Below are positions 751 to 64,000 of a DNA stretch of 64,000 bases, one piece after another. The DNA is taken from the NCBI GenBank assembly GCA_023374045.1, contig CM041782.1, forward strand, positions 251,247,810 to 251,311,809, read 5' to 3'. Made by a program: the position numbers and the translations under genes. The notes below the pieces were generated by a model. The model made no database searches, was not told where the DNA came from, and saw nothing but the letters and a program-made list of their open reading frames with translations. Positions within the stretch are counted from its first letter, which is position 1; every line of letters begins with the position of its first letter. The stretch comes from Limonium bicolor (taxonomy: Eukaryota > Streptophyta > Magnoliopsida > Caryophyllales > Plumbaginaceae).

Positions 751-2335
751 TCTTCATAAAGTAAATTCTATCTCATTCTCTCATTTCCTTCCTTGCTCAC
801 ACGGTTTCCCACCTCTCTTCTTCCTTTCTTCTTTGTTCTCTCACGATAGAACCACTACCACCATTAAAACACAAGCTTTGATCTCTTGTAAAACCTTGCT
901 CACTTGTCCAAATCAAAAAAAAACACCACCAATCTCTTCCTCTCCTCAAGCTCTTCATTTCTATCTTCTCCAAACTTCAAGACAACCATTTCGGTGCCAT
1001 GGAGTTTCTCCATTGAAGGAGCTTGAGCTTGTTTGACTACATTATTACTCTCCTTGGATTCTAGGTAAGGAATCTCAAATAAAAACTTCCTTTCCTCCTT
1101 GTTTTTGTCATGTCCGAAAATATGTATTGAAGGAGCTTTTTATGTGACTTTGTTCTAGCTTCATTCCAACTCTTCATGGACTAGGTGGAGTCCTCTCTTG
1201 CTAGATATTCAAACTCTCTTCAAAGAGCAAGGTAAAACAACTACATTAATGTTTTGAAACAATGTAAAACTAGGGTTTACAATGAGATGGAGCTTATAGC
1301 TTGAATACTCATTTCAATGTTTGTATATTGTTTAGAGCTTGTCAAAGAATCAAGTACTCTATTGGTTTTCTAAAGGAAACAAGAAAGAAGTTATTTTGCA
1401 AAAGAGGTAAATCTACTAACCTAATGTATTTTAATGCCTTAGGAGAAATGAGCTCATAAATGCTTATTAAACTACCTAAAGAGCCAATGGTGAATGACTT
1501 AGTAAAGTGTTCCAAGAGCTTAGTAAAAGGCATATGTGTTGTTGAGTGTATTTGCAGGTAAAGGCAAATATATTGTGGAAATTCAGTGTTTATGATTTGT
1601 GCATTTTAAGGGCCTAAGAGCCATGTCATTTAAGGGCCTAAGTGCCATGCAATTTTAATTGTGCACTATATTGTGATGTAGTGCTTTGTAAGTGAAGTTT
1701 GTGTATAATAAGTACTTGATGGATTTTTAGTGTTCTTGGTTGTTTGTTGGTAAAAACAATGTGTTTTGGGTTAGTAATGTTCTAGGAGAACCTATGTCGA
1801 AATTTGGGTAACAAATGTGAAGTTCTAAGTGTTAAAATGAGTTGATAAGTTAAGGAGTATTTAAAATGGTTAAGTGTTGTTCTTGTGTAGGAAACATGCA
1901 TTAAGGTGATTTAGGATGTAACAAGGACTTAGGCATGAGCTTGAGATTTAGTATGTACCAAAGTCATTTTGGGACTTAGTAAAGACTTAGGCAAACTTTG
2001 GTAAATAAGGAGAAAGTGTGAACTTGGAAAAAGAACTTCAAGAGTGATATAAGGAGTTGGTGTGAGAAATAATGCTTAAGAGATGGTGTTAAGATAAGGA
2101 GAAAGCATTTTGGGATAGTAGTTACCATAGGTGAGAAACACCACCTAGGAACCTAGTATAAAATAACATAAGTGTTAGAGGAATTTTACAAGGAAATAAG
2201 TAAAGGCTTAAGGAGTTAGAAAATGAGTTTCATGGATGTTGTATGTGGATGTAAGTTACCAAATGTTCTTGGAGCATTAAGAGGCCTTAGGAGAAGTTTG
2301 GTGAAGATTGGCAAAGTTTGGGTAAGTTAAGAAGG

Positions 2336-2667
2336 CGACCGACCCAGGGTCCGACCCAGTTTTGGGTCGGTCGAGCCTCTGTTAGATGTTAGGAAAAGTT
2401 TCGGTGATGGTCCGACCCAAAAGGGTGGGTCGGACATGGGTCGGTCGGTCAAATTTCAAAGGAGGGAAATGTTCGCACATGGTCCGACCCAGTGAGTGAG
2501 TCGGACGTGGGTCGGACGGCATGATTATGAAGAAGTAAAAGGGTTTCTGTAATGGACCGACCAGAAGGTTGGGTCGGACATGGGTCGGTCAGGTAAAGTT
2601 TTTCAGACCCGAAAACCACTGGGAGGGTCCGACCCAGTTGTGGGTCGGACGGTGGGTCGGTCGGACC
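2336..2667 (+). repeat. Mid-LTR palindromic hairpin array (CCGACCCA type)
   Basis: Five units, each with GGTCCGACCCA or GACCGACCCA on one arm and TGGGTCGGAC or GGGTCGGTCGG on the other, separated by unrelated spacers. Each unit can fold into a GC-rich hairpin in an otherwise AT-rich LTR. A poly-A run follows at once. The E LTR has an array at the same place with a different palindrome. Confidence 0.85.
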
Positions 2668-3608
2668 AAAACTTGTAAAAAAAAAAACAGAAAAGAATGT
2701 GACTTATGTAGTTAACCCTAGGGTGTATAATGAAGGTAACCTAGGGTAAGATAGGCATTAAAACATGTCATACAATCATGTTAAAACTTAGTAAGCTTGG
2801 AGTTAATAAATAATTAACCGACATTACTAATGTGTTAGGATTCTCGCAAGGTGGAAATCAGTCGAGGCAAGGACCAAGGTATGGTTTTCTTGCAGTCTGT
2901 TGTCTAGCGGTTTACACCGGTTTGTGTGTTGTATGTTTTTCTGTGTGTTTACAACGTTATAAGATTTAAACATGTAATGAGTTTACAGTTGTTCATATTA
3001 TTGTGATGTTTGTTGTGACTCATTTCCCTTGTGTGTGTCTAACATGACTTACCAATTGTGTGTTGGTTGTTAAGTTCCACTATGAACTTCTAACAAGTGT
3101 TAACTGGGAAGTGAGGAATCCGGTTGTCCGGTCATGCATGTAAGTTAAGAGTAGATATCTGAATCAGATTCGACTCTTATGTTGTTAAGATTGTTCACCT
3201 TAATTTGGCGTTCGATCTCCCGCTAGCTTCTTCCAAAGCTTACCTATTCTGACTTATGATCGGTTTAGTGGGAACCTGTGTTTGTGTGGTGTGTTCGGGT
3301 CACTAAATCCGAACCATCTGTGACTTAAGTTACTCGTTCGTCTAACAGAACGGTAATGAGTGTGTTTAACGAGCTTGACATGAGAGTGAATCACTCTCTA
3401 GGCTCTTATGTTATTTGACCCTTGTGGTTTGTTATCGTGGAGTGAAAATCCACTGTGTATGTGTTGTTGAGCTATGCACCATTGATGCCATGCTCCATGT
3501 TATGTTATGCTATGTATATAATGAATGCCATGTTATAATGACAAGTAGCTGCGCGTATCCCGGTAGCCGATGGGCTGCGCGTTAGCCATACCAGCCAAGG
3601 GTTGCTGA

Positions 3609-3620
3609 CCCCCTCGGGGG
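3609..3620 (+). repeat. CCCCC/GGGGG hairpin in U5
   Basis: CCCCC, TC, GGGGG, just after a GTTGCTGA motif. Counterparts with other sequences are at 56994-57005 (E), 50221-50230 (CCCC/GGGG in D), 59154-59165 (F, on the minus strand) and 14911-14923 (GGCCC/GGGCC in family 3). Confidence 0.6.
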
Positions 3621-3896
3621 ATCCATATTTCTTATACTGCAGGATGAGGATCGAAGAAGCGGAGTGGCTCTAGATCCTAGGGTGCAGGTTTACTTTTGTA
3701 TACTTTTGGGATGTTGGCCCGGGATGCGCCTGTGCTCCCGTGCGCGTTGTTGGATTTGGTTGTGACAGTTTACAGTGATGTTTAACAGTGAAGGTTGTAT
3801 ATGTAAACACTCGGTATTGTATATGATGTAATTATGGTTTAGTTTTATGCTCGGGAGTCTGATCATCAGACCGGTACAAGTGTATTGTTCTGCCTT

Positions 3897-3918
3897 GTCA
3901 ACCACGTGGGTGGTTGAC
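3897..3918 (+). other. Conserved U5 hairpin (9-bp stem, GUGG-type loop)
   Basis: Arms GTCAACCAC and GTGGTTGAC around loop GTGG, about 90 bases before the LTR end. All the families have a hairpin here with changed but still paired stems, so it is probably an RNA structure in the transcript leader. The motif TTCCGCTGC follows in most copies. Confidence 0.75.
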
Positions 3919-4009
3919 GGCGTTGTAGCACCGAAGCGTTAGTTACTGTTTAGTTGTTTTATTCCGCTGCGATTTCATTTAGTATCATGTGCGTATTAGG
4001 GGTGTTACA

Positions 4010-5165
4010 AAACCTATCTAGGATCAATAGATGAAAAAGACAACGTGTGGGTGCAAACGGATCCAAATCGGAGTTATGACACAGAAATAAGGTTTACAGT
4101 TGAGTAAGAATATGCGCCGACCTTGCATGTCCGAACACATGCGAGAGTAGAAATACAAATATTTGCTTATGTCCGACATACAAGTCCAAACACAAGTTTG
4201 GGACAGCCCTAAAAATGCAGCAGATTTACCACGGATTTGCAAAGGAAAAAAAGAAGAAGAAAGAAACAAGAACAAAGGCGAGAAAAATAAGAAAAAAGAA
4301 AAGAAATGTAGGGGCTCTACCTCTATTGAAGCTCCGCACCTCATCCATGGATGTTTCTCACCTTTTCTCCCCTCTCTCTCTAGTGCTTGAGTAGTCTCAT
4401 TTTGTATCTAGGGATGAGGATTTTGCCCCAAGTCCCTAAAACTTTATTGTTGAACCTTGAACTTATTTGAATGCTTTATTTTAGTCCTTGTTCTAAATGT
4501 ATGATAATATTAAGTGTTTAGGGTTTTTAAGCTTGTCTACATGGAAATTGAGTATTTGCTTAGGTTTTGCTCAATCTATTATCATTGTGTTAAATTAGTT
4601 GGTTTAACGTTTCCAACTAATTTACCATTAGTGTGGGTTTCTACCGTAGTTAATCAAAAGTAGAGATATATATGTTGGAGACTAAATCAATGTAACCGTA
4701 TCTCAAGTATTTGACATAGGTTCCATTGCAAGTTAGGGGGAATTTGTGCTTAATGCTATCGATTGAACCGGGTACTTGAACTAACATTAGAGTTTCAATT
4801 TTTTAGGATTAATTCACCAAGATTTGGTTGTTAGTTATTAAATATTCCTGTTGTTTAGCTACAAGTTCAAGAATTGACACTTGGTAGTAAAGGGTGATGG
4901 GTGCAAAGAGCCATATTCCCAGGTACATCTATCTTAGATAGTTAGCTTAGTTTTATAGCTTTCCTTTATTTACCCGTTTAACAACCAAAACCAAAAACCC
5001 TTGAATTTTTGGCCATTATATTTTTGTATATTATGCACACCTACTAAACTTATAAATAGTTAGATAGTATTGAAGTCCCTGAGGATATGACCTTGTTGAC
5101 TACAACGAATGGGTTCACTGCTATTTAATTAGCAAGATATATTCATTTTATTTTGCACAACATTG
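4010..5165. repeat. Unclassified repeat remnant, probably LTR or leader of another retrotransposon
   Basis: AT-rich sequence with no credible gene. The stretch 5070-5140 (CCCTGAGGATATGACC and following) is, on the opposite strand, a diverged copy of the motif at 40700-40760 (GCAAGTGCACC, GTATCCACAGG). The two remnants therefore probably belong to one or to related repeat families in opposite orientation. The A-rich frame at 4163-4390 (many Lys and Glu) looks like low-complexity sequence. I cannot name the family. Confidence 0.35.
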
Positions 5166-45526: not shown

Positions 45527-46417
45527 CTTAGTAATAGCCTTAGTATTTTCCTGCTCAATCCGGAGTGTAAATACTAAGATTAATTCCTTTGTGGTACTTA
45601 GACTATCTCAAAATCATATGTTGATAGTTACCATAAAAATGCAGTTGTTTGTCACGCAAAGCATTTAACAATATTAGCTGAAAGGAATTAAAACAATTTA
45701 ATTAGAGAGACAGGTAATAAATACTGTTTTACATAATATTAGAATCAAACCCCCATCCTAGGATATAAAAGAAAATTACTCAGACATTAACAGGAATAAG
45801 AAGTTAGCACAGATAGAATTAGCCATTATTTCAGAAAAAGAACTGGTCTGCTCTCGCTCTCACTGCTGCTCTTCTATTTCTTTTGTTTCTGCGTGAGTAT
45901 GGAATGTTGTGGTGTTACGGGAGAAAATGAGTGGAAGAGAATGGATGAGTGTGGTGAATGATTTCTTCAGTCTCCCGTCGTGGTGTAGTTTTTTTTATGG
46001 TAGAAGGACTGGGTTTATATAGAGGCAGAGGATGAGGTTGAAGAGCTGGAGCATGCGTGCTAGTGGATGAACAAGATAAGGGAGGTAGATGGATTGAGGC
46101 TGCAGAACACGTGAGGATTTTCAGGACTGTCGGCCGCACCTGATCTTGTTGTCTGTAGGCGCCGCAACGAAGAAGATAAACAACTCTGTCGCGTTAATTA
46201 TTTCCTGTCCGTGCTTTTGTCCTGGCTTAATTCCACGGACTGGGCTTCAGTTTTGCCGCGTCCGGGTTTATGTCCGCCCTTTTAGGGCCGGACGTCTCAC
46301 GCGTCTATTTCCGCGGACGTGCCACGGTTGTTACTCACGTCCGCCCTCTGTCCGCCTTTCTTTCCACGGACACAGTGCGTCCGGGTCTCTGTCCGGATTT
46401 CTTTCCCCGGACGTGAC
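45527..46417. repeat. Old repeat, right part, with a GC-rich hairpin tract
   Basis: Continues 40661-41015 after the duplicated CTTAG. On the minus strand CTATATAAACCC near 46015 looks like a TATA box, suggesting a minus-strand promoter. From about 46207 to 46414 lie several GTCCG-rich palindromic units (GTCCGG or GTCCGC arms facing CCGGAC or GCGGAC). Element D is inserted at 46417/46418. Confidence 0.4.
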
Positions 46418-48565
46418 TGAAATACCCCAGACGTTAATGTGTTAATTAAATGTGTAATTATTATTTTCTAAGGCTAATTAAGTCCTTAAGATCATTGGTG
46501 AAGAAAATAAAAACCAAAAAGAAAAAGAAAATGCGTAAAAGTCACAAAACGTGAAAACGCGTTTTTAATTATTTTAGGAGGCATATAACCTTCATTAGGG
46601 TTATAAATATATTTTTATACCTTAACTATACACTAAGAACACGTGGGAAAAATTCCCGAAGAAAACGGATCCAAACAATGCGTTAAAATGCTAACGGAGT
46701 CTTAAAGCGTGTTTTCGAGGAACCCGAAAACGTGACTTTAAACAGTTAAACGACCCCGTAAAATTATAGTCAAATATATAACTATAATGAAACCTTAATG
46801 GAAGCCTAAGGGCTATCAAAATTTAAGAAACGAGAAAAATCCGAGAAACGGGCCCGGTTAGTGAATAGTGCTGAAACCGGGTAAATTAACGAGCGTTTTC
46901 TGTAAAAACCGAAAAACGCTCCAGCTGGTATTATATTAGTGGGGCCGGTTTTGTAACTAGTAAGCAGCCTCCCCTCTCTTTTACTAGTAAACAAGAAAGA
47001 AAAGAAAAGAAAGAGAAAAGCAAAAAGTAGAGAGAAAAGTACAAATCACTTTAACACTCTCTCTCTCCCATTCCTATTCTCTCACTCACGGTTTTTCCCC
47101 CCATCTGAACTCTCCTTCTTCCTCCAGCCAAGTATGGCGATTTTGAAGCTCCTCCATGGCAGCCTCACTTCCTCTCCTTGTACAAGCTCTATTCATGCTC
47201 CAAACTCAAAAATAATTACATATTTGTAATCCCTGCATCCACCTCTATCATTCCCTCTTTTCAAAATTCGAAAAGGATGAGTTTCATCTCCATGGGTTTT
47301 CCCCATTTGAAGAGAAAAGCACACCATTGTGAAGCTTGGAGTCTCCTCTTCATTCTAAGGTAAAAATTCCCAAGAAAAAGTCATCTTTCATTCACCTCTT
47401 GGTGTAATCGATTTTTCACCATTTTGATACCTTGTTTTTCTTCTTGTTCTTGAGCTCCAAATTAATCCTTCAATGGTGGAGTAATTCCCTTCTTGATTCA
47501 AGGGAGAGAATCCCTCTTAAAAGCTTCAAAAAGGTAAACCCTAACTTGTGTTCTAAGCCCTTTGATTGAATTGAGTTTTCTAAGGGTTTAGATAATTAAT
47601 TGAGTGTGTTTTGTGTTCTTGGATGTTGGGGTGGAGCTTGGAAACTCCACACCCTTTTAACCGACTTTGGAAGAGATGAGGAGCAAGAAGAGAATTAAAG
47701 AGACTTGTGAAATTAAGGTAAGGAATCCACCTTGAACCTTGTTTATAATTGTTTAAGTGTTTGGGGTGGGTAAACAAGGTAATGAACCCAAAATGATGGA
47801 TTGAAATATATGTTGAAAATGTGTTTAATTGGTTTGGAGAGGTTTGTGAATTAATGTTGAGTAAAGGGCCTTAAGAGCCAAATGTTGTGAGTTTGTGATT
47901 GATAATGTGGTTATTGAGATTATGGAGATTTTGGTGATTGTGTTGTTGTTGTTGGTGAATTTGAGGATTTTGTTATGTGCTGTTAGGACCCTTGAAAGGG
48001 TGTGGCTAGATTAGGGATGAGAAGGATGAAAGTTGATGAGGATGGATGTGTAAAGTTTATGGGGAGATTATGGCAAAATTTTGGTAGAAAGATGATGTTT
48101 GATGATGGTTGATGGATGAGAGAACTTAGGTATTCAAATGGGATGTTTAATGATAAGAGAGTACAAATCTGTAGCATAATGGTGCTAGGTAACTTGGAAT
48201 TTCAAGGAAAAGAGTTGGTGTTTGTAATTGGTGAAACGAAGATTGAATGTGGGTTTTAGAAGTGCATTTATGTAGGAATGATTTATAATGGTCATTGATG
48301 GTTTTGGTGAGATTGGTAGAAGGTAAGAACTATCAAAAGGAAATAGGAATGCACAAGTGTGCAAAATGCAAGAATGTGAAAAGTGAGTTTGTTGAATTTG
48401 AGCAAGAATTGGGTGGTGGATTAAGCCAAGGATTTGGAGTGGTTTAGAGTATGCTTTGAGGAGATTAATTATGTATAAAACTTGTGGAAAGATTAGGGAA
48501 AGTTTGAGTATGGTTTAAGGGTGGATTTGGGGCTTAAAAAGTACCTCAATAGCAGTTTTTAGCAG

Positions 48566-48747
48566 GGTCCGGGACTTAGGATATGTACCAAGTCCCGGAC
48601 CGCATCAAAAAACAAGCCGAGAGTGAGTGCAGGAATTGGTCCGGGACTTAAGTCCAGGACCAAGTCCCAGACCAGTGTATGAAAATAGGCCGAGAGTTCA
48701 TTCCTTTATTGGTCCGGGACCTAGGGTGAGGACCAAGTCCCGGACCA
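48566..48747 (+). repeat. Mid-LTR hairpin array, GGTCCGGGAC type
   Basis: Three units, each GGTCCGGGACTTA or close facing AAGTCCCGGACC or close, at 70-80 bp spacing. Same location in the LTR as the arrays of families 1 and F but with another palindrome. Confidence 0.85.
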
Positions 48748-50501
48748 CCCCCAGAATTGCCTAGAAAGTGTTTTTAAGGGTTCTAAACATGGGGGATTGA
48801 ATGGTATTGGTTTTAGATGTTGTATAGGAGTTGTTTGGTGACTTATAAAGGTCCTAAGAAGTATAAACAAGTGTTGTAAGTAAGTGAGTAAGTTAAGGAA
48901 TTAAGTACGCTAAGTTAAACCGAAATAACGGGATAACGGGGTAAGTACGGGGGTAGCGATTATGTGCATACCGTAGTGCCTTAATATTAATTGAACCGTT
49001 TGACATGTAAATAGTGGTTCAAGAGTAAGACACGAGGAACAAGTATGAACCAAGGAGCATGATAACCCCCGGTGAAGATAAATCCATGGTGTAAGGTATG
49101 GTTTTCTTGCAACCTGTGTCCTACCGGATTACACCGGCTTGTATGCCAATGTGTTTTTCTGTGTGTTTGCCACCTTGCAAGATAAAGCATGAAATGAGTT
49201 TATAGTAATTCATTATTGTGGCGTAATTAATTCCGATACCGCTTAACCCTAATTATGTGTTAAATAATAGTTAACCGACCTTAGGTTCACATAAGAGATC
49301 GGTATTCGGAATAAACGTCCCAACCCATGGGAACGTTCTAACTACGGCTATCCGTGCGTTTGTGTATGTTGTGACTATGTGTGGTGTATGTGACTTTGTT
49401 CTGTGTGTTGTTGCTATCGGATACAGTTATCCATGTTTGTTAAAAAGGGATGTTACTCCCCTTCTGGGCTAACAGAGTCAGTAACACTATGTGATGTATG
49501 TATGTGATGAGTTCCATAAAGGAACCTTTAACTAATATGTATATGTTATGTATGGTGAGGAATCCGGTCGTTAAAGTCGCGCGTATTGTTTGGGAGTTGA
49601 TGTATATATGTGAATTAACTCCCATCCTGTTATGTTAGGGTTGTTTTCCTTCATTGGATTTCGACCTCCCATTAGCTTAGCCAAAGCTTACCTACCCAAC
49701 TTCCAATCGGGTAGGGGGAAATCATGTGTAATATTGGTAGGGTGTTGATGCCTAAGTTCGCTTCGACTCCCTCTTTATTATGTTGCGGTTGTTTTTCCTC
49801 CTTGAATTACAACCACCCACAAGCTTAACCAAGGCTTACCTACCTCATCATTATTGGAGCTAGGGGGAAATTGTGTAAGGTGTGATCGGTCCTATATGAG
49901 GCCGCCACACCTAAGTAAAGGAAATGTATGTATGTTGTGCTCGGGCTTATATCACCCCGGCACTCCCCAAGTAAAGTTTATGTTCTCTAGGAAGAAAGGA
50001 ATTAAGTTTGTGTAGGTTATTAAGTGAAATGTGTTGTTATGTTGTGTGTGCTAACCTTGAGTTTATGTTCTGTTAACGGATGTGTGCTTTTAAGCATGAT
50101 GTATGTGTGTAATGTGTGCATGTTTTAAATAAAATCAACCGCATGCTAAGACGACAATTAGTTGTGCGTGGCCCGGTAGCATGCGGGCTGCGGGATTACC
50201 ATACCAGCAAAGGTGCTGAGCCCCTTGGGGGCCACCCTTTTCTTCCTTTTCTATTTCAGGTACAAGGAGCTGGAGGCCGTTCGAGAGTAGGACAGGGTAG
50301 TTGATTGTATGTGGGTAGTCATGAAAATTGTGGATGTGCTGTAGGTGTAGTAAGACCGAAATTGTATCGGCGTTAGTTGGTAATTACTCGGTACAGTTGT
50401 AATGTAAGTGTATATTGAATGTTGAACATGGAACAGGATTAATGTGTAGTTGCTCGGGAGTTTAGTCCATCAGACCGGTACGATGTATGTATGTTAGCCT
50501 T

Positions 50502-50523
50502 GTTAGCCACGTGGGTGGCTAAC
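50502..50523 (+). other. Conserved U5 hairpin, element D version
   Basis: Arms GTTAGCCAC and GTGGCTAAC, loop GTGG. Compared with family 1, an A-U pair has become G-C on both sides. Confidence 0.75.
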
Positions 50524-50621
50524 GGCGTGTAACACCAAGAGTTGAGTTATGTTGTGAGTTGTGATTTCCGCTGCAAAGAGTTGTTAAGTGTGTTATTTGT
50601 AGTTGGGGTGTTACAAAAAAG

Positions 50622-52455: not shown

Positions 52456-54135
52456 GTACTCATAAGTGCAAGCTAGATGTAATGGCATGACCTAGTAACA
52501 CCCAGGAACTATCCTTAAAGGGTGTTTGGACCAACAATGGTTGAATGAGATAACATGACGGAAACGCAAGGGTTGAAACTAACACCCAGTTTAAGCATAA
52601 GTCGTCAGGACGAAGTCTGACATCCTTGGAGGGGCATACCATGAAAGGAACAACGACCTTGTCATGGAGCTCAATGCAACCTACAAGCCATGTAATATTA
52701 TATGGAGAAGTAAATGTGCGTGAACAGCCTACAACGAGCAGAGCTCGAGGCAATAAGGCTTAAAAGCCACAAATCAGATGTGTTAAGAAAATGTTATTGA
52801 TCACAGAAGTTTATGTTATATAAGTAAGTAAGCGGATGCCGAACCACTGCTTAAAGTGTGGGGATACCTCTTGATATTGTGAGGCCGCAACAGCGGTAAT
52901 TATGTGAACTAAATTCAGAGAATGTGCTAGGAGTTGACCATGTTGTTACTACGAAAAGAAGTATTCGTACCAGTTGTGCAGACTGAAGGGGTGATAAGCC
53001 TAATGGCAACCACCATAGGTGTGGGATGCTAAATATGTAATGAACAACGCTCAAGGAGCATGAAGACTCGAAGAATAGAGTATTCAGCAATCAGCCAAAC
53101 AAGTGGCGAAACACAGTGTAATGGCAGAAGCTAATATAATAGCGGATGCAGTGTAAGTTAATGTTATACAATGAATAAGAGCACGGTGCGCAGTAAGCGA
53201 CCGTTGCATAAGTATTGTTAAATAATAATGTGACAAATAAAACCAGTATGAGTTAAACTCAATGGACATACAAGTAAGTGATGATACACGACCGGGCAAT
53301 AAGCCAACGATCGGTACTATGTGATAAGGAACTCAGTGTGAATTCCTATTGCAATCGCATAAGAGATTTACTGACAAGAGTTTACGCCTATGCACGCTGT
53401 AGGACTGAGTGTTTTGGTATTGCGCTTGCGCGGTAATGACCAAGACTTATGGTGTGATAAAATCGATGCATAAGAGAAGCACGGTCGTACCAATCAAAGA
53501 GTACTTGATTGGCATTGAAATACCCCAAACCTTAGTATATTGTTTAAACACCTAAATATGGTGTATTAAGACTAAAAGAGTCTTAGAAACATTAGTAAAC
53601 AAATTTAAACAAAAGACAACATGAAATGTGCTTTAAGGTCAATAAGAGCCAAAATGTGCTCTAAGCTTGGGTTGAGCTTGGTTAAGACCTAATGAACTTA
53701 CCAAGACCTTATTTATATACTAATGAACATATTAAACCAATTACCAAAGAAAACCAAGCTTGAAAACAAGTTAAAACACAAAATGTGCTTTAAGGAGTCT
53801 TAAAGCACATTTTTGAAAAATTGTCTTTTAAATGAGTTTTGAATGGCTAAATGTCCATCTTTACTCTTAAATATATATGTGTACTATATAATATCACATT
53901 TGGATGTCTATATCAATGGGAAATCAAAAATTTCACTTCTATGTGCCTTGTTTTTATGAATAGTGATTTTATAAGCTAGTTTGTAACATATGTTGTATTA
54001 AGTAATTAAATTGACAAGAAAAGACTAAAATACCCACATTATATTATAGGGGGCCGGTTTTCTAAGTGTGGTGACTCACCACTCTCTAGTTAATATGATA
54101 AGTAAATAAGGAAAACTAATTAAGCTACTTTTTAC

Positions 54136-54143
54136 TTTATAAG
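54136..54143 (+). promoter_or_regulatory. Probable TATA box of element E
   Basis: TTTATAAG at the place of the 743-750 TATA motif of the other family 1 LTR, followed by a TC-rich leader. Confidence 0.4.
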
Positions 54144-55708
54144 AACAAATATCTTCTTAAAGCAAATTCTATCTTCATTCTCATTTCCTTCCTCCATTTC
54201 ACATGGTTCCAACTCCATCTCCTTCCTTCTTGCTGCTCTCTCACGGTAATACTCACCACCACCATTAAAACTTTAGCTTTGACCTCTTGTAAAATCTAGC
54301 TCACTTGTCCAAATCAAAAACAAACACCACCAATCTCTTCCTCTCATCAAGCTCTTCATTCCTATCTTCTCAAAACTTCAAGAGCCCCATTTCGATGCCA
54401 TGGAGTTCCACCATTGAAGGAGCTTGAGCTTGTATTTCTACATATTATTACTCTCATTTGCTTCTAGGTAAGGAATCTCAAATAAAAACTACATTTCCTT
54501 CATGGTTTTGCCTGGATCGAAAATGTACATTGATGGAGCTCTTTGTGTGACTTTGTTCGAACTTCATTCTAACTCTTCATGGACTAGGTGGAGTCCTCTC
54601 TTGATATATATTCAAACTCTCTTCGAAGATCAAGGTAAAACAACTACATTCATGTTTTTGAAACAATGTAAAATTAGGGTTTACAATGAGATGAAGCTTA
54701 TAGGTTGAATACTCATTATAATGTTTGTATATTGTTTAGAACTTGACAAGGAATCAAATACCTTACTGGTTTTATAAGGAAACAAGAAAGAAGTTGTTTG
54801 GAAAAGAGGTAAATCTACTAACCTAATGTTGTTTAATGCCTTAGGAGAAATGAGCTTATAATGCTTGTTAAAACTACCTAAAGAGCAAATGGTGAATGAC
54901 TTAGTAAAGTGTTCTCAAGAGACTAGTAAAAGGCATATGTGTTTTGAGTGTATTTGCAGGTCAAAGGCAAATATATTGTGGAAATTCAGTGTTTAAGAAT
55001 TATGCACTTTAAGGGCCTAAGAGCCATGCATTTTCAGGGCCTAAGTGCCATGCAATTTAAATTATGCACTATATTGTGATGTAGTGCTTTATTAGTGAAG
55101 TTTGTGTATAATAAAGTGCTTGATGGATTTTTAGTGTTCTTGTGTGTTTAATGGTGAAAACAATGTGCTTTGGTGTGACAAAATGCTAAGAGAACCTATG
55201 TCGAAATTTAGGAAATGCATAAGGAGTTCAAGATTTTTTAAAGGAATTTTGATGGACTAGGAAGTGTTCTAGAGTGTAACAAGGACTTAGGCATTATCTT
55301 GAGGTTTTAGTATGTACCAAAGTCATTTTGGACTTAGGTAAAGACTTAGGCAAACTTTGGTAAAATAAGGAGAAAGTGTGAACTTGAAAAAGGATTTCAA
55401 GAAATGACATAAGGAGTTGATGGTAAGAAATGATGCTTGAAAGATGATGTTAAAATGAACAGAAAGTATTTTGTGATAGTAGTTATCATAGGTATGAAAC
55501 ACCACTTGGAGACTAGGAGAAAACATTGTAAGTGTTAGGAATTTTGTGAAGACATAAGTAAAGGCTTAAGGAATTACAAAATGAGTTTTATGAGTGTTTA
55601 AGGATGTCTTAAGGTGTGTTTGAAGTGCCCAAATGAGGATAGGGGGTACTAGGTTATATGGGGTGAAGTTTGGAGTTGAATGTGAAAAGGAAAACAAGGG
55701 TCTGGAGC

Positions 55709-56038
55709 AGACCGAACTTGCGACCGAACTTGTAAGTTCGGTCGAGCCCAGTTTACCCTGCGAGAATTGGCTTCTGGAATGGACCGACCTTGGGGACCAG
55801 ACTTGCAAGGTCGGTCGGGCTTGTAATTTGTGTACGGATTGAGTTTCTGGAATCGACCGAACATGGGACCGGACTTGGCAAGTTCGGTCGGGCTGAATTT
55901 TCAAAGGGAAGAAACTCTCGGGAATAGACCAAACATGCGACCGAACTTACAAGGTCGGTCGGAGTAGAAAATTTTGACGGAAATGTGTTCTGGAATCGAC
56001 CGAACTTGGGTAAGTTCGGTCGGTAAGGTCGGTCGACC
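55709..56038 (+). repeat. Mid-LTR hairpin array, CCGAACTT type
   Basis: Five units of GACCGAACTTG or GACCGACCTTG facing AAGTTCGGTCGG or AAGGTCGGTCGG, with TTCTGGAAT spacers, then a poly-A run. Flanking sequence on both sides matches LTR 120-4009, whose array uses CCGACCCA instead. Confidence 0.85.
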
Positions 56039-57293
56039 TAAACTTGTAAAAAAAAACAGAAAGAATATGACTTATGTAGTTAACCCTAGGGTATAATGAA
56101 GGTAACCTAGGGTAAGATAGACATTAAAACATGTCATACAATCATGTTAAATATTTAGTAAGTTTGAAGTTAAATAAATAATTAACCGACGTTATTAACT
56201 ATGTATAGGAGTGACCTACGGAGGAAATCAATCGAGGCAAGGACCAAGGTATGGTTTTCTTGCAGTCTGTTGCCTACCGGTTCACACCGGCTTGTGTGTT
56301 GTTTGTTTTTCTGTGTGTTTATGACTTTGTAAGATTAAACCATGTAAAGAGTTTACAGTTGTTAAATATTATTATGTTGTTAAGTATGACTCTCTCTTCC
56401 CTTGTGTGTGTCTAACAAGACTTGACCCATTATTGTGAATTGTGTATTGAGTTCAATGATGAACTACTAACAAGTGCTAACGGGGGAAGTGAGGAGTCCG
56501 GTCTGTTCCGGCCACGCGTGTGAGTATGGGAGTCGATGTCATAACCGGTTCGATTCTCTTTGTATGTTATGGTTGTTTTCCAATTTGGTTTCCAACCTTC
56601 CCTTTAGCTTAACCAAGGCTATTTTACTGACTCACGTCGGGCCACAGGGGCATACTATGTGTTATTTCGGTGGGCTTGGATCACTATATCCGAGGCACCT
56701 TGTGTTAAGTTATCCGTTCAATCTAACAGGACGGTAACGAGTTATGTAACGAGCTTAGCATGAGCATGGCAACATTCTCTAGGCTCTCAATGGGGACTAA
56801 CTGTGTTGGTTCTCTTCCTAAAAGGAATTGTATGTGTGTGATGTGTGTGGTGATGTGTACGATACCCATGTTATGTTATATATGTATAAGCTGTGTGTTT
56901 TAAAATGAATGCCATGTCATCATGACAAATAGTTTGCGCGCATCCCGGTAGCCGATGGGCTGCGCGTTAACCATACCAGCCAAGGGTTGCTGACCCCCTC
57001 GGGGGATCCATATTTCTTTTACTGCAGGATGAGGATCGAAGAAGCGGAGTGGCTCTAGATCCTAGGATGTAGTTTACTTTTGAGTACTTTTGGATGTTGG
57101 CCCGGGATGCGCCTGTGCTCCCGTGGCGTGATATATAGTTGGTTGTGACGGTTTATAGTGATGGTTAACAGTGATGTGTTACAGTGAAGGATATATGTAA
57201 ACACTCGGTATTTTGTTAATGTATATATGTGGTTGTTAGTTCTATGCTCGGGAGTCTGATCATCAGACCGTACACTTGTATTTATTCAGCCTT

Positions 57294-57315
57294 GTTAACC
57301 ACGTGGGTGGTTGAC
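57294..57315 (+). other. Conserved U5 hairpin, element E
   Basis: Arms GTTAACCAC and GTGGTTGAC (one G-U pair), loop GTGG, about 90 bases before the LTR end. Confidence 0.75.
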
Positions 57316-57412
57316 GGCGTTGTAGCACCATTCGTTTAGTTACTGTTTAGTTGTTTATATTCCGCTGCGATTTCAAGTAATGTGATGTGCTTAGTAGGGG
57401 TGTTACAAAAAG

Positions 57413-57424
57413 TGGTATCAGAGC
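57413..57424 (+). other. Primer-binding site of element E
   Basis: TGGTATCAGAGC, five bases after the LTR end, complementary to the 3' end of initiator tRNA-Met. It overlaps hairpin 57417-57440 (arms ATCAGAGCG and CGCTCTGAT). Confidence 0.9.
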
Positions 57425-57623
57425 GAAGTATCGCTCTGATGACTAGAATACCAAGCTTAGGGATATACCGAGTTAGGAAACCTAACTACAGTTACCTAAG
57501 TGAATATTATGGAAAGGTTAACCACTAACTAAGTGTGGAGATACCTTATTATCGGGAAGCGTTACAACCGTTGGACCGATAAGTGTGCAAGCATAATGCT
57601 AATGAATATTCATGTGAATTCAG
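57425..57623 (+). other. Leader between PBS and gag of element E
   Basis: About 200 bases without a gene. It shares ACCGAGTTAGG-like words with the D leader and ends GTGAATTCAG directly before the gag ATG, which looks like a splice acceptor; a leader intron from a donor in the LTR is possible. Confidence 0.4.
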
Positions 57624-58301
57624 ATGTCAGGTAGACCGCGAGGTAGAGGCCGCGGAAGCGGTACTGGTGATATGGGTGACCAGGGCGAGAACACTACGGC
57701 TCAGGTTATGGCTGAGGCTGTAGCAGCCGCTGTAGCCCAAATGGTACCCCAACTTGTAGCTGCGATTCAGCAGGGGCAGACGCCCGGAGTTCAACTACCA
57801 CCACCGCCACCGCCACGAGAGACCAACTGGGTCAAGGCGTTGGCTGATTTGAGGCCACCCTCAATCAGTGGGGAGACCGATCCCCGTAAGCTGGAGGCGT
57901 ACATCTCCGAAATGGAGACCGCCTTCGAAACCTTAGCAGTACCTGAGCAGGTCAAGGTTCGACTTGCTGCATATTACTTGAAGGGCTCGGCACAGAGCTG
58001 GTGGAAGCTAGTGCGAGAGGGCAGAGTTGCTGACCCGACTTTTCTGTGGAGGGAGTACACGGCTCTGTTGCGAGCCAAGTACTACCCAATACATGTGCAA
58101 GAGGCCAAGCGCCTGGAGCTGGACAGTTTGAGGCAAGGGGATAAGATGACGGTAGATGAGTACTACTCAGCCTTCATCGGACTTATCCACCTGCTACCGG
58201 ATCTGGGTTATTCAGACCGGATCCTTGTGAACCATTTCTACAACGGACTGAACTATCGCCTACGCTATGGCATGGGGCCTACTGGATATACCACTTTGCA
58301 G
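57624..58301 (+). CDS. gag: Gag, exon 1 (Ty3/gypsy capsid region)
   Basis: 226 codons beginning MSGRPRGRGRGSG. An Arg/Gly-rich start is followed by an Ala/Gln helix region (about residues 27-50), a proline run (58-64) and, from about residue 75, the retrotransposon gag core. Recognisable words are LKGSAQSWWKLVREG, the LRAKYYP segment and LRQGDKMTVDEYYSAF, the usual order of PF03732-type gag of plant gypsy elements. Gag forms the particle that packages element RNA. The frame would run only a few codons past TTLQ into a stop, but TTGCAG/GTAATG is a good splice donor and the continuation is open after 58396. ATG at 57624 is the only good start; it follows a possible acceptor. GC-richer than the LTR. 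Family assignment is confident; lineage (Tekay/Del-like by its long LTR) is a guess. Confidence 0.9.
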
Positions 58302-58396
58302 GTAATGGGACTATAGTGTAATGTGAATAAGTGTGTACAATGTGTTAATGTGTTGTGAATTTAGTTGGCGGGGCATAACTGACACCCTAAATATAG
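58302..58396 (+). other. Predicted intron 1 of gag
   Basis: 95 bases, starting GTAATGG and ending CTAAATATAG, with an in-frame stop and AT-rich sequence between. Joins phase 0 codons: TTLQ to ECYHAAAIMEITVRL, which matches the usual gag sequence after TLQ (a helix with an acidic-basic pattern). Confidence 0.7.
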
Positions 58397-58655
58397 GAGT
58401 GCTATCATGCCGCTGCAATTATGGAGATCACCGTCCGTCTGAGGGACGAGGAGAGTGCGCTCAAGCGCAAGGCTATGAACGAGGGCCAAGGCACGAAAGG
58501 GCAGTGGGGAGGAAAGAAGAAGAAGTCATACCCCCAGTCCCAGAAAGGACAGCAACAGGGTGGCAAGGGCCAGACCCAGACCACCACAGCTGAGGAGCCT
58601 CTGCAGCTCACCTATGCGTATGCGGCCAAGCCCCTACGTTCTTACCCACCTAAGG
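58397..58655 (+). CDS. gag: Gag, exon 2 (linker and basic region)
   Basis: Continues gag in frame: ECYHAAAIMEITVRLRDEE, then a Lys/Gln-rich segment (GQWGGKKKKSYPQSQKGQQQ) and a proline-containing tail that ends before a donor at AAGG/GTAATT (58656). Basic low-complexity tracts between capsid and zinc knuckles are normal for plant gypsy gag. Reading straight through the donor gives an AT-rich tail quite unlike the rest, which supports the intron. Confidence 0.75.
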
Positions 58656-58736
58656 GTAATTATCTAATCCTGTGTGATAAGTTGAGGTGTATGTTGATAA
58701 GTTGTGAGACAAGTATTGATTGTGTGATTGTGATAG
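58656..58736 (+). other. Predicted intron 2 of gag
   Basis: 81 bases, GTAATTATC to GTGATAG, phase 1. Splicing restores the frame into ASTGSGPERHYYCK, the start of the zinc-knuckle region. Confidence 0.65.
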
Positions 58737-58780
58737 CAGCTAGCACGGGCTCTGGACCGGAGCGCCACTATTACTGCAAG
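58737..58780 (+). CDS. gag: Gag, exon 3 first part, cut by solo LTR F
   Basis: Encodes the lead into zinc knuckle 1, ending with its first Cys and a Lys (codons TGC AAG). The insertion of F follows base 58780, and GCAAG (58776-58780) is repeated at 63063-63067. The frame resumes exactly at 63068. Confidence 0.8.
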
Positions 58781-58884
58781 TGTAACACCCCAACCGTTAA
58801 TCTCGTCATTACCTCTTAAACCGTTACTAAATACTCCTACTCACGCAGCGGAACTCTAATTACAACGAGGGGTGGAACAACGCC

Positions 58885-58906
58885 GTTAGCCACCCATGTG
58901 GCTAAC
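58885..58906 (-). other. Conserved U5 hairpin in LTR F
   Basis: In the LTR sense, arms GTTAGCCAC and GTGGCTAAC with loop ATGG. Confidence 0.7.
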
Positions 58907-59439
58907 CAGGCCTTTCTTACTTACCGTAACGGTCTGATGAACTGGAACAACCGAGCACTTCATACAACACAATACTCAATTCCTTTCTTTACTATACCGA
59001 GTCTACAATATACGGATGCCGATAACATACTCGGACTTACACCTCATTCAAATGCATTAGTAATTACCATCTAACTACCCATGCTTCATAGCAGTCCCCG
59101 TCCTACTCTCTCGAACGGTGGTGAGCTTCAAGTACCTGCACACTAAAAACGTTCCCCCTAGGGGGTCAGCTTACGTTGAATATGAAATTCGCATATACCG
59201 CGTGCTAACCGCGGTACGCCGACTACTTAGGGTCGGATATACATGGAGTTCTTTTTAATCAAACAACATGCATCATGGGAATACAATATATATGTATATT
59301 ACACAAGGAATCTACATCCAAACAGGGAGCACAATCCCTAACCAACATAACAAGGTTGTTAGTTGTATATGTTTACTCTTAGGCCATGAGGGTTACACCT
59401 CACTATGCCTTGTTTACTTATTCAGTACCTCTCCCGCTC

Positions 59440-60320
59440 TCTCGGGTTACTTATTCAATTACACGCCCATTCTCTTGGGCTACTCGTACTATACTCACCC
59501 ACACTCTCGGGTTACTTATTCTCATTATCTCACCCATACTCTTGGGTTATTTACACTCATTATCTCACCCACACTCTTGGGTTATTTATACTCAAGCTCT
59601 TGTAGATTCTCGAGACACTACAGGTCTCCTACGTCACGCTTGTTACTCTTAATACATATTTAGGCCAAAACTCATGGCTCTCTAGCATAGTCTTACTTCC
59701 CCGGTTTCGACCCTACTCTGGGTCTAGCATGGTGGGAAGGCTCAACTAGCTCCTGGAACTTTCTCTTAGTTCCCATCTCTTTTTACATAGGTCCGACTAC
59801 TCTCGGACTACTCACTTTCCCATACGCTCCTCTCTCGGAGTTATAATAATTTTATGTATATTAGTCTAGAAGCATCACTCTTGATGTTTCTAATGACTTT
59901 GGGAACTTTACTTAAATTCGGGTAATCTTAAGTTTAAGGGTTACCCTCACAATCATATACTTATACATTCGGATATTTTCTTATACCGGGTAAGATCCTC
60001 ATATAGGAGGTCGACCATGTCTCAAGGGAGTTACATAGTCCCTTAGGTCTCTTTTACCTTTCTTATAAGTTCACATTATTGGACTAACTTCAATCCTCTC
60101 GATGGAGGTCATTTATCTCTCCACTCATATTTATTTCGTGGATTGTTTCAATAAGGTTCTCTAACCGTTATCGGGTATTTACTCAACCCGTACATCTCCT
60201 CACATTTTTAGGGAGTTCATATGTTTGTGTTATCGTTATACTTTAATCGATAGCTTGTGTGTGTTTGCATATTACCATTGTTCATGAGACTACCCGATCT
60301 ACGGGTTTCTAGTCAATCAC
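59440..60320 (-). repeat. Chain of short stem-loops with recurring AGAG loops in LTR F
   Basis: Plus-strand examples: GCCCA-TTCTCT-TGGGC (59465-59480), ACCCA-TACTCT-TGGGT (59532-59547), ACCCA-CACTCT-TGGGT (59567-59582), GACCC-TACTCT-GGGTC (59709-59724), GGAACT/AGTTCC (59755-59773), GTCCGA/TCGGAC (59791-59808), GCATCA-CTCT-TGATGT (59872-59887). In the LTR sense most loops read AGAGTA, AGAGTG, AGAGAA or AGAG. The first few also form a ~36-bp tandem repeat. Confidence 0.6.
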
Positions 60321-60842
60321 TACTCTCTATGAGTCGGTCTATGCACTATGTTAGACCACACCGGCGTACAAGTAGGTTAGTTCATACAACATACAATAAG
60401 GCATACATAATCAAACAAGGGATTATTTCCATGCTTTAATCTTGATTAAGCCGGCACACAAACACACAAATCAGAGTAACTCGGTTAGCATACGGGGCAT
60501 GAGAAAATCATACCTTTCACCGGGGTTTTTACTTTTACCGTGTCATCCCACCATGCTTGGTTCACACACGATCCACTGATAACATTCAAATGTTTTATTA
60601 ACATCAAAGCATTACGGTATGTAAAACCAATACTCCCGTACTTAACCCCGTTATCCTGTTTAACTTAGTTTTACTCATGTGTTCTTAAACTCACAACTTC
60701 CTCATTCACTTATCAAACTTGTTTACACTCCTAATGACCTTTAAACATCATTATTCATGTCCTAATTACCTTATATTATCATTACCATTCAATTCCCCAT
60801 CATTAGAATGCAAGAAAACACTTTCTGTTACATTTCTGGCCT

Positions 60843-61020
60843 GGTCCGGGTTTGTGTCCGGGGTTACAAACCCGGACCAAACACTGGAATCAGTTTCTGT
60901 CGTATTTTCATGTGGTCCGGGTTTGTGTCCGGGTTTACAAACCCGGACCATCCCCTGGGATGACCTTCTGCCATGTTTTTGCTATGGTCTGGGTTTGCAT
61001 TCCGATTTGCAAACCCGGAC
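60843..61020 (-). repeat. Mid-LTR hairpin array of LTR F
   Basis: Three units of GGTCCGGGTTTGTGTCCGG facing TTACAAACCCGGACC, the third diverged, about 70 bp apart. Same relative place as the D array but a different palindrome. Confidence 0.85.
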
Positions 61021-63067
61021 AACCCCTGGAACTGTCAAAACTTACAGTTTTTCACCAGTTTTCAACCCCTAAATCACCTCTAACCATTTCCTAATCATTC
61101 CATAAGTTTTCCACATGTTTAATCATCATAAAACATACTCTAACCCTCTTCAAAACATTGGTTTATTCCTTACTAAAGTTCTTGCTCAATCTCACACATT
61201 TTTCATTCTCACTTCACACTAATGCACACTTGTGCACTTCTAACTTCTCCTCAACACCTTGCATTATGCTCTCTTTCTTTTTGACCATTCCATATCTTCC
61301 AAGATAATGCACAACTCATACCAAGTTCCAAGACTCACTCTTAAAGCCTTATTTCTTCTTTGTTTCCTAAAAACTCCTAAGGCACTAAACCACTCTTATT
61401 TCTACACAAATTTTGCCATAACTTGGCTACTTTTCTAATTTTGCCCAAAACTCATTTCTTCACAAAAATCATCCTAGAACTAGCCAAACCTCAAGGGTTC
61501 TATCAGCACACATAAAACTACAAGACTCATCAAATTCTCCAAATGCAACACAATACATAATTAATAAAATGCATTGCTCTCAATCATACACTAAGTACAC
61601 AAATGTTTTCTCACTTGCATTATTTCTAAGCAAGCACATTATCACCACAGCTCAAGTGGGATCATTCATTTTAATTACCCCATCCCAAATTCTAATACAT
61701 ATAGAATATACTTTAGGGTTGGTTTCTTACCTTGCATTCTCTTAAGTTTCCTTGTTAATACACTTCTCCTCTTCTCATCTTCTCTTCATCCAAAATCGGT
61801 CAAGGCAACTCACTTGCCCCATTCTCTAGACCAATATACCAATGGACATGAGGAGTACTAGTTAGCTCTTTTAGTTAAGGCAACCTCTCATGAATTCAAA
61901 GAAAGGCTTAAGGCATAGAATTGGACATTACCTTAAGAAACCCTAGAATTGGTTTGCCCAAAAATCAAAGGAGGAGCTCCAACCCACCATTGGAGACTTG
62001 GAGAGTAGCTCAAAACAAAGAGAAGCAAGGCATTAACACATGCCAAAATCGGCCAGCACAAGGAAGTGAAGAAAAATGTATTTTTTTTTTGGATATTTTT
62101 ACCTTGGGTGGAAGAGGAGATGTCTAGCTCCAAGAACATGTGATTTCCTTCTCAAATGGAGTATACCCATGAATATGAACTTCTTCCTTTTTGAATTTTG
62201 AAAAGAGAGGGAGATAGGCCTTGGTGAGAGGAGCAAGAATCTATGCTCGGTTTTTAATTCGGAGCTTTAATGAAGCTTGTACTTGGGGAAGAAGTAAGGA
62301 AGCCATGGGAGCTCCTTTGTAGCAGCTCAAATCGTCAAAGGAGGAAGAAGAACCAGAAGAGAGGAAAGAGAGGATGTGCTCACGGTGGGGAAAGGAGAAT
62401 GAGAAGAGAGAGAAGAGGAAAGGTGAGTATAGTGTACCTTTTCCACTTTTACTATTTACTTTATGCTTTTTGACATAATATATTAATTAACTAGTTATGT
62501 GTGAGAGGGGAGTCACAAGACTCATAAAAATCGGCCCCCACCATATTAGTAAGCTGGAGCGTTTTTCGGTTTCTGACAGAAAACGCTCGTTATTTTACCC
62601 GGTTTGGCACTATTCACTCACCGGGCCCGTTTTTCGGATTTTTCTCGTCTCTTTATTTTTAATGGCTATTAAGCTTCCATTAATACTTATTTATAGTTAT
62701 TTAATCAACTATAATTTTTACGGGTCCGTTTGACCACTTAAAGTCACGTTTTCGGTATTCTCGAAAAGCGTGCTATAAAACTCCGTTAACATTTTTAATC
62801 CATTATTCGGATCTGTTTTCTTCGGGAATTATTCCCTCATATTAATTAAGCATAATTAAGCCTTAGGGGTCCATCTTGGACCCTAACGAGATCATATATC
62901 TCTTATACTCATTTAATGCGCGTTTTAGCGTTTTTCGCATTTTACGCATTTTCTCTTTTCTTTTGGTTTTATCCTCTTTACCAACACTCATTAGGCACCA
63001 TTAGGCCATTCATAATCATATTAGAGTAATTAAATCGCCATTTCTAGATCCGGGGTATTAAAGCAAG

Positions 63068-63368
63068 TGGTGCAACGGAGACCACCCCGGCAAGGACTGC
63101 AAGGGTAATGATGTGCAGTGCCGATACTGTAAGAAGATGGGTCACCGCGATTACGAATACTGGCAGAACCCAAACAGTAGAAGCTACAGGCCCAAGGGGC
63201 AATGGAAGGGTAAGGCCACTGCGACCACCGATGGCCAGAAGACGGCGAACCAGCCACCCCCAGATCAGAGGTACACAGAGTCCCAGAAGGGGAAGGGGTC
63301 GGGGTCCAACAAGGCCACCCTAAATGTGGTGGACCGGTCTGAGGCGCCAGGGCCCTCTTCTAGACCAG
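63068..63368 (+). CDS. gag: Gag, exon 3 second part (zinc knuckles and basic tail)
   Basis: Together with 58737-58780 this gives knuckle 1 of type C-x2-C-x3-H-x4-C (its visible remainder is WCNGDHPGKDC), followed by knuckle 2, CRYCKKMGHRDYEY, where the last expected Cys is Tyr. Knuckles bind the element RNA. A Gly/Lys/Pro-rich tail follows to about 63368. Read on, the frame stops at TAA 63377-63379 after GTA; alternatively a donor at CCAG/GTACCG (63369) leads to the AlkB frame. No protease motif is seen in this part. Confidence 0.85.
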
Positions 63369-63495
63369 GTACCGCCTAAACTGTTGGATGTAATAAGTGT
63401 TTGCATACCGCATTCCATGCATGTGTGTGAGTGAGTTTAAGTAAACAACCATGTGAGTAAATAATTAAAGTATAGTGTGAAAGACACCTAATTAG
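63369..63495 (+). other. Predicted intron 3, between gag and the AlkB frame
   Basis: GTACCG at 63369 and acceptors TTAG (63495), AAAG (63513) or TGAAG (63561); each of the three gives a phase-compatible join (phase 1) to the AlkB frame. A branch-point-like CTAAT lies at 63488-63492. The intervening sequence is AT-rich and has stops. Which acceptor is used, and whether it is used at all, is unknown. Confidence 0.4.
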
Positions 63496-64000
63496 AGTAC
63501 TCTAAACTTAAAGGAACCTTAAATATATGTTATCCAATCCCACCCTCACCAAACCCTGAAGAAACCACCATCAACATCACCGACTTTCCATTGGAGCAAT
63601 GTCAGGTTATCCAGCCAGGTATGATACTCTTAAATGGATACCTGACACCGGAAGCACAAATCCATATCATCAGACGATGCGACGAACTTGGAGCAAAACC
63701 AGGAGGTTTCTACACACCCGAATACCCGAACGGATCAAGAATGCAATTGAAGATGATGTGCATGGGTAAGGACTGGAACCCTTACACCAAGACATATCAA
63801 GAAGTGCGAGCTGAAGATGGAGCAACGGTACCAAGTATACCTGAGGAGTTCCTTGCGGTCGTTAACCACGCCGTGGGAATTGCTCAACAAGTTGAAACCG
63901 ATTCAATTCCAAGTGTGAAAGCAGATCTATGCATTGTGAACTTCTACCAGAAAGGTGGACGGTTAGGTTTACACCAAGACAAGGACGAGTCACCTGAGTC
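63496..64000 (+). CDS. ALKBH1-type AlkB 2OG-Fe(II) oxygenase domain, partial (runs off the window)
   Basis: The frame is open from 63492 to the end, about 169 codons. After a short Pro-rich lead come QPGMILLNGYLT (about 63612 on), IIRRCDELGAKPGGFYTPEY, then MQLKMMCMGKDWNPYTKTY, and at the end DLCIVNFYQK followed by GRLGLHQDKDES. This is the order of conserved blocks in plant ALKBH1 (AlkB-family) proteins. The last block has the N-x-Y motif and the first two Fe ligands, His (63972-63974) and Asp (63978-63980) of HxD. The distal His and the 2-oxoglutarate-binding Arg lie beyond the window. Such enzymes oxidatively remove methyl groups from nucleic acids. It stands on the same strand as gag, about 120-200 bases after its end. 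It could be a captured host domain in E's gag-pol or a host-derived pseudogene fragment. No clear start codon precedes it in frame, which favours translation as a downstream exon. Confidence 0.85.

Follow-up and report, generated by a model that had tools for sequence, protein, structure and literature searches.

At the right-hand end of a 64,000-nucleotide stretch of Limonium bicolor DNA (here called the window; a part of contig C7 in the 2.92-Gb genome G000), a long terminal repeat (LTR), a gag gene and an open frame resembling the ALKBH1 demethylases follow one another on the forward strand, which raises the question whether a retrotransposon carries a demethylase of its own and how such an enzyme would be expressed. 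A preliminary description of this locus had placed the LTR, the primer binding site (PBS), the gag capsid, the zinc knuckles and the AlkB domain, and all were located as described (Retrotrans_gag, 3.5e-17; PF13532, 2.1e-20 in the window part). We found that the window copy, which extends past the window edge, forms a complete LTR retrotransposon of the Ty3 type and no host gene, and that its gag is joined in frame to the ALKBH1-like domain by splicing, as had been proposed. The features are collected in Table 1.

Table 1. Features of the AlkB-carrying retrotransposon in window coordinates; positions beginning with L009 lie beyond the right edge of the window.
Feature	Position	Strand	Basis or remark
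Target-site duplication GGCAT, left copy	53511..53515	+	right copy L009:8432-8436, beyond window
5' LTR, TGAAATACCCC...GTGTTACA	53516..57407	+	alignment with 3' LTR
Primer binding site TGGTATCAGAGC	57413..57424	+	sequence reading
gag exon 1, capsid	57624..58301	+	Retrotrans_gag and Ty3_capsid matches
Intron 1, GT-AG	58302..58396	+	precisely lost in 3/39 other copies
gag exon 2	58397..58655	+	junction copies
Intron 2, GT-AG	58656..58739	+	precisely lost in 1/39 other copies
gag exon 3, first part, zinc-knuckle start	58740..58780	+	interrupted in window copy
Nested insert, solo-LTR-like, not the element's own	58781..63062 (approx.)	+	GCAAG on both sides
gag exon 3, second part, GCAAG repeat included	63063..63368	+	zinc-knuckle cysteines, basic tail
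Intron 3a	63369..63513	+	donor 63369, acceptor AG 63512-63513; removal joins gag to AlkB
Intron 3b	63369 to L009:934	+	contains whole AlkB exon; removal joins gag to protease
AlkB (ALKBH1-like) exon	63514..64000, cut by window end	+	C-terminus and stop L009:750-752, in another frame

The sequence past the right edge was read as two 10-kb stretches (L009 and L010), and it holds what the preliminary description had expected there: the AlkB C-terminus with the distal His and the Arg, followed by (i) an aspartic protease (RVP_2, 9.2e-27), (ii) a reverse transcriptase (RT; RVT_1, 5.3e-34), (iii) RNase H (1.2e-34), (iv) an integrase (H2C2, 2.2e-16) with an SH3-type tail, (v) a polypurine tract (PPT; AAGGGGGGTAGA) and, directly behind it, (vi) a 3' LTR (approximately L009:4593-8431) bordered by the second GGCAT. 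A chromodomain match after the integrase (PF00385, E 1.5e-4) scores 22.0 bits, slightly less than the curated cut-off of 25.1. The copy thus reads 5' LTR, PBS, gag, AlkB, protease, RT, RNase H, integrase, PPT, 3' LTR, that is, two LTRs, a 5-bp target-site duplication, a PBS, a PPT and the gag-pro-RT-RNaseH-INT order of Ty3-type elements. The LTR pair, GGCAT at both ends, the purine tract and the pol domains after AlkB establish that this is a complete element.

The two LTRs share 98.8% identity over 3836 aligned columns, with a Kimura two-parameter distance (K2P) of 0.0124. If 1.3e-8 substitutions accrue per site and year, its insertion would date back about half a million years. For eight of ten LTR pairs (the other two lacked a 3' LTR within the retrieved sequence) K2P ranges from 0.006 to 0.047, from which the family, an abundant one, is judged to have moved recently. 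A genome search with the gag piece gave 40 scored matches of 97-100% identity, the window copy included, from 6002 first-look candidates; the 39 other copies were retrieved with 100 bases of upstream sequence and 4200 bases downstream of gag. Gag and AlkB are adjacent in other copies, too, as the preliminary description had anticipated: a full AlkB piece follows gag in 34 of the 39, as well as in two diverged neighbours, L070, directly upstream of the window, and L071, about 21 kb past its end, both with AlkB between gag and protease. Among the remaining five copies three stop before AlkB and two inside it; foreign sequence begins at the break, which in two cases starts with TGAAATACCCC, as the element's LTR does. 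The AlkB piece itself also gave 40 scored matches, all of 98-100% identity, from 2896 candidates. At G000:C1:497439419-497470107, four AlkB matches recur on the same strand at intervals of about 10.1 kb and are probably a tandem array of elements.

The domain resembles plant ALKBH1, and one might think of a host ALKBH1 gene or pseudogene lying next to an unrelated gag fragment. The AlkB frame does not run into a host gene, an outcome which the preliminary description had named as fatal to its proposal; pol and a 3' LTR follow instead, and the layout is identical in the 34 copies and both neighbours, so that the probability of such a chimera is practically nil and we consider it ruled out. A genome search with a Senna ALKBH1 protein revealed no distinguishable host ALKBH1 gene with introns. 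All of its 144 scored matches are single blocks with an open frame of about 213-313 amino acids (many of 252), and they look like element copies; 107 of them were stop-free by hand count, in a score-ranked list that favours intact copies.

How gag and AlkB are connected was answered by the genome itself. Donor 63369, proposed in the preliminary description together with three in-frame acceptors, 63496, 63514 and 63562, is genuine, its GT being conserved in 36 of the 37 aligned rows. Acceptor 63514 is used as well (AG in 36 of 37 rows), whereas for the in-phase acceptor 63496 the genome-wide search found no gag-AlkB joint. These searches covered the whole genome with the exact joint sequence, allowing up to 2 mismatches. 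The gag-AlkB joint made with acceptor 63514 was found at 11 places (3 exact) and a gag-protease joint at 13 places (5 exact), with none in the reversed-pattern control of either. The latter requires the removal of 1066 bases, including the AlkB stop, by an acceptor at L009:935 that is in phase with donor 63369. Exon joints in genomic DNA are expected of reverse-transcribed spliced RNA, and since both were found, one donor with two acceptors would yield either Gag-AlkB or Gag-Pro-Pol.

Five junction copies were read: one gag-AlkB copy over 1.7 kb, one gag-protease copy over 1.3 kb and three gag-protease copies over 500 bases. In each of them the frame stays open through the joint, which reads SSRPG followed by TFNICYPIP in gag-AlkB and SSRPG followed by CALGTGG, or nearly so, in gag-protease. 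Copies with the protease directly after the zinc knuckles had been put forward as evidence that AlkB does not belong to the element. They do exist, at the 13 places named above, but they fit splicing: gag-protease copy L074 matches the AlkB-bearing L071 at 98.1% identity both before and after its joint, and most likely it lost AlkB by exact removal at the splice sites.

The two upstream introns behave in the same way, their exact loss in some copies fitting reverse-transcribed spliced RNA, although the three copies without intron 1 could stem from one event. Intron 1 is kept in L073 and intron 2 in L072, so that single introns can go independently. The splice sites are kept in both L070 and L071, with intron 1 just 71% identical in L070, and gag exon 3 ends in phase 1 at CCAG. 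In another copy (L014) a zinc-knuckle stretch has been lost between a GT and an AG, which may reflect cryptic splicing or a deletion between short repeats. The insert that splits gag exon 3 of the window copy is missing from all seven first-fetched other copies.

Shortly beyond the window end a single frameshift interrupts the AlkB of the window copy, whose last part, with the distal His and the RxxxxxR motif, resumes in another frame. The PF13532 match over L009:1-618 reaches 4.2e-30 (105.8 bits; cut-off 31.2). Across the copies the HxD motif and the distal His are kept in 35 of 35 rows, and the Arg residues of RxxxxxR in 33 and 34 of 35, respectively; demethylase activity is predicted. The number of open AlkB frames varies with the criterion applied: from acceptor 63514 to the C-terminal NLTF 13 of 34 copies are open, 19 closed and 2 not scored; from 63573 to NLTF 15 of 35 rows are open; other criteria gave 7 of 39 copies (exact motif within one stop-free stretch) or 13 of 35 rows. 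An AATAAA about 110 bases past the AlkB stop (L009:863-868), present also in L070 and L071 (3 of 3 aligned copies), is a possible poly(A) signal of a short Gag-AlkB mRNA.

Whether the domain is maintained was judged from the neighbours and from variation among the copies. The 3' LTR of L070 occupies window positions 118-4012, as judged by its position and the PPT preceding it. In DNA identity to the window copy, L070 reaches 83% in gag exon 1, 94% in AlkB and 92% in RT, and L071 90, 95 and 95%, respectively. The ratio of nonsynonymous to synonymous divergence (dN/dS; NG86), a comparison suggested in the preliminary description, is 0.11 for AlkB against either neighbour (dS 0.174 for L070 and 0.152 for L071; about 175 codons before the frameshift). 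The corresponding values for L070 and L071 are 0.13 and 0.16 for RT, 0.20 and 0.15 for protease and 0.10 and 0.14 for gag exon 1, while RNase H and integrase give 0.04 to 0.06. AlkB is therefore under purifying selection, about as strongly as RT. Synonymous divergence from L070 is uneven (dS 0.76 in gag exon 1, 0.17 in AlkB), and such strong differences between pieces indicate that the elements are probably mosaics.

Polymorphisms found in at least two copies were set against the ratio expected under neutrality, with weights taken from the mutation spectrum in non-coding parts of the element. AlkB shows 18 nonsynonymous and 22 synonymous shared polymorphisms where the neutral ratio is 2.45, that is, a ratio to neutral of 0.33 (p = 5e-4, a rough value like the other p-values given here, since sites were treated as independent). 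The counts for gag exon 1, gag exon 3 and protease are 11:25, 8:12 and 14:36, with ratios to neutral of 0.20, 0.27 and 0.16, respectively; the difference between AlkB and either gag exon 1 (p 0.24) or protease (p 0.12) is not significant. The many broken frames (the 19 closed copies among 34) could suggest that AlkB is a neutral passenger of a successful element; broken copies are, however, expected after insertion, and a dN/dS of 0.11 between subfamilies with retained catalytic residues leaves this idea disfavoured and exceedingly unlikely.

We consider it probable that a Ty3-type element captured an ALKBH1-like dioxygenase and has kept it as an alternative exon of gag, with splice choice, inclusion of Gag-AlkB in the particle and demethylation there as the parts of one mechanism. 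The following RNAs would be made: (i) splicing from donor 63369 to acceptor 63514 would give an in-frame Gag-AlkB fusion ending at AlkB's own stop, (ii) splicing from the same donor to L009:935 would remove the AlkB exon and create an in-frame Gag-protease joint, and (iii) RNA left unspliced at this donor would encode a Gag ending at TAA 63377-63379. The ratio of the products would be set by splice-site choice. Some Gag molecules would carry AlkB at their C-terminus into the virus-like particle; there it might oxidatively strip packaged genomic RNA or single-stranded cDNA of N-methyl groups that could otherwise impair export, translation or reverse transcription. We infer both the packaging of Gag-AlkB and its substrate. 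The more specific proposal that the demethylase is shipped as a spliced Gag C-terminal extension to clean packaged RNA or cDNA, with splice choice setting the Gag:Gag-Pol ratio, is tentative, and we hold it with somewhat less than even confidence.

Several observations weigh against this account. The window copy is defective twice, in AlkB by the frameshift and in gag by the insert, one AlkB stop codon is common to two or three copies, and the part of AlkB upstream of 63571 is so short that it gives no measure of selection (synonymous to nonsynonymous changes 4:3 against L070 and 0:2 against L071). The gag of L073 is 81-84% identical and that of L075 and L076 about 75%, for which an inherited, older AlkB-less lineage is possible. 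In some of the copies read, frames break soon past the joint (after 45 residues in L072 and 32 in L076). The reading covered five of the 24 junction places. Among the 24, some lie near one another (for example C2:386603597 and 386613666; C2:353436701 and 353445881), so that independent splicing events are probably fewer than junction places. The junction copies in genomic DNA attest that spliced RNAs were reverse transcribed, not how frequent they were.

The preliminary description saw one possible substrate in the primer: animal ALKBH1 is reported to act on N1-methyladenosine 58 (m1A58) of tRNA, and the PBS resembles initiator tRNA-Met, which we take to be the type of primer used. The idea that AlkB erases m1A58 on the primer is not supported and is very unlikely, since, in the accessible part of one report, m1A58 gives the correct end of HIV-1 plus-strand strong-stop DNA and infectivity drops in cells deficient in its writer (PMC13191261), from which it follows that erasing m1A58 should harm the element. 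Published systems would fit other substrates of a particle-borne enzyme. Rice ALKBH1 acts preferentially on N6-methyladenine (6mA) in single-stranded or unpaired DNA (PMC10469495), which would fit cDNA, whereas an orchid enzyme removes N6-methyladenosine (m6A) from RNA in vitro (PMC9289625) and ONSEN RNA needs ALKBH9B for its exit from stress granules (PMC12786077), which would fit element RNA.

AlkB might instead be released from Gag by cleavage, or translated from a start codon of its own, and work as a free protein that demethylates element or host mRNA outside the particle, as suggested for the orchid ORF2. The orchid AlkB is indeed encoded by a separate open reading frame (ORF) and demethylates m6A RNA in vitro, and chromatin and 6mA are targets of the rice relative (in the parts seen of PMC9289625 and PMC10469495, respectively). 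In Limonium, by contrast, the spliced form found in genomic copies is an in-frame Gag fusion, and the AlkB exon has no in-frame ATG before a PGM motif about 36 residues in, behind ICYPIP, a stretch shared wholly or partly with two related proteins, P0001 and P0042; we regard a free protein as unlikely, though not negligibly so. It appears improbable that AlkB targets 6mA or Polycomb marks on the DNA or chromatin of the element itself and so sustains its transcription. Named relatives include the DNA N6-methyladenine demethylases ALKBH1C and 1D, and in rice 6mA increases in R-loop regions when ALKBH1 is lost, and the protein impairs binding of PRC2 (PMC10469495, in part), but a Gag-linked protein would be expected mostly in the cytoplasm.

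Further repeats were noted around the element. Window positions 10824-39562 hold a tandem non-autonomous element in which three LTRs of about 4.7 kb alternate with two internal regions (LTR-int-LTR-int-LTR; about 99% identical). The first of the two internal regions is without a long open frame; the element's LTR end and PBS region resemble those of the AlkB element (61 bases at 90%). A 4.2-kb LTR-like repeat occurs twice (46415-50615 and L010:4464-8664; 98.4% identity) and is distantly similar, on the reverse strand, to the nested insert 58781-63062. The 500 N bases in the window are an assembly gap outside 57400-64000. A readable psaB piece of 97 residues has its best matches in photosystem I chains of seed plants, ahead of those of a moss and an alga, which suggests a seed plant as the source but no finer placement.

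With regard to its origin, the AlkB domain is best matched among solved structures by 5xeg (6.1e-37), which we take to be rice ALKBH1. Plant protein matches (best 120 of 7994 scored) mostly show 42-53% identity, and the only ALKBH types named among them are ALKBH1C and 1D. Five unnamed proteins (P0001-P0004 and P0042) are closer, with 58-71% identity. In a tree of 39 rows (37 of 134 proteins, hand-picked; two of the rows are outgroups; midpoint root; no ALKBH5-type protein), the element AlkB groups with these five (96/86) and is sister to, not inside, a 30-protein clade (97/92) that holds all named plant proteins sampled. L071 was left out of it because no stop-free AlkB piece was detected in it by the script; an earlier tree held 20 of 24 proteins, also hand-picked. 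A DICYP stretch is common to P0001 and P0042, and the preceding sequence differs near the element's exon start. The clade is a hint that elements of this kind are more ancient and more widespread than a single genome would show. Among 866 candidate proteins of about 504-1605 amino acids, no annotated gag-AlkB or AlkB-pol fusion was found at E <= 0.001.

Among the known systems, plant ALKBH1 (ALKBH1C/1D; 5xeg) has the same Fe and 2-oxoglutarate residues as the element AlkB, but it is a cellular protein, and the element AlkB falls in a separate clade. In plant RNA viruses the AlkB domain is linked to the replicase. These viruses are likewise mobile genetic elements carrying AlkB, likened here by description and not by sequence, with the domain present in Alphaflexiviridae, Betaflexiviridae and Closteroviridae (PMC9289625, in part).

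The closest parallel qualifies the preliminary statement that no such retrotransposon was known: an AlkB-bearing Ty3 element has already been described in orchids, with another AlkB type and layout. Gypsy_Pa_2799 of Phalaenopsis, a Ty3/Gypsy element with a 2-oxoglutarate-dependent dioxygenase (2-ODD, AlkB) ORF2, is, by the accessible part of its report (PMC9289625), likewise a plant Ty3-type element of high copy number with an AlkB-family dioxygenase and complete cofactor residues. It is, however, a 25-kb element of the Tat/Ogre lineage (by RT tree) with a tRNA-Arg PBS, an ALKBH5-type AlkB in the separate ORF2 and gag-pol in one ORF without an intron. The Limonium element, compared by published description and not by sequence, does not have this layout: it shows a chromodomain match, the TGGTATCAGAGC PBS and an ALKBH1-type AlkB that lies in a gag intron and is spliced to Gag. 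According to the same part of the report, the orchid domain was found in two Phalaenopsis only among 121 angiosperm genomes. Besides the orchid element and a review citing it, no AlkB-bearing LTR element emerged from titles and the beginnings of abstracts, and a literature search on AlkB and retrotransposons, covering few subscription papers, found no AlkB as an alternative gag exon.

If our reading is true, plant Ty3 elements would have captured AlkB for a second time, now with an AlkB of another type and in what seems to be another lineage; a general part for base demethylation in the life of retrotransposons becomes more likely with it. By linking the enzyme to the particle protein, the splicing pattern would make the questions about its substrate (element RNA, cDNA or primer) directly testable. 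The genome also preserves a simple record of a retroelement's alternative splicing, in the form of spliced RNAs that were copied back into it. Ogre and EVADE (PMC12786077) and BARE (PMC3735527) also use splicing for different RNAs from one element; in the accessible parts of these reports the products are subgenomic RNAs (Gag-only for BARE), and no enzyme exon serving as an alternative end of Gag is described. What is new in Limonium, compared with these systems, is that AlkB lies inside a spliceosomal gag intron, with its alternative joints recorded in the genome.

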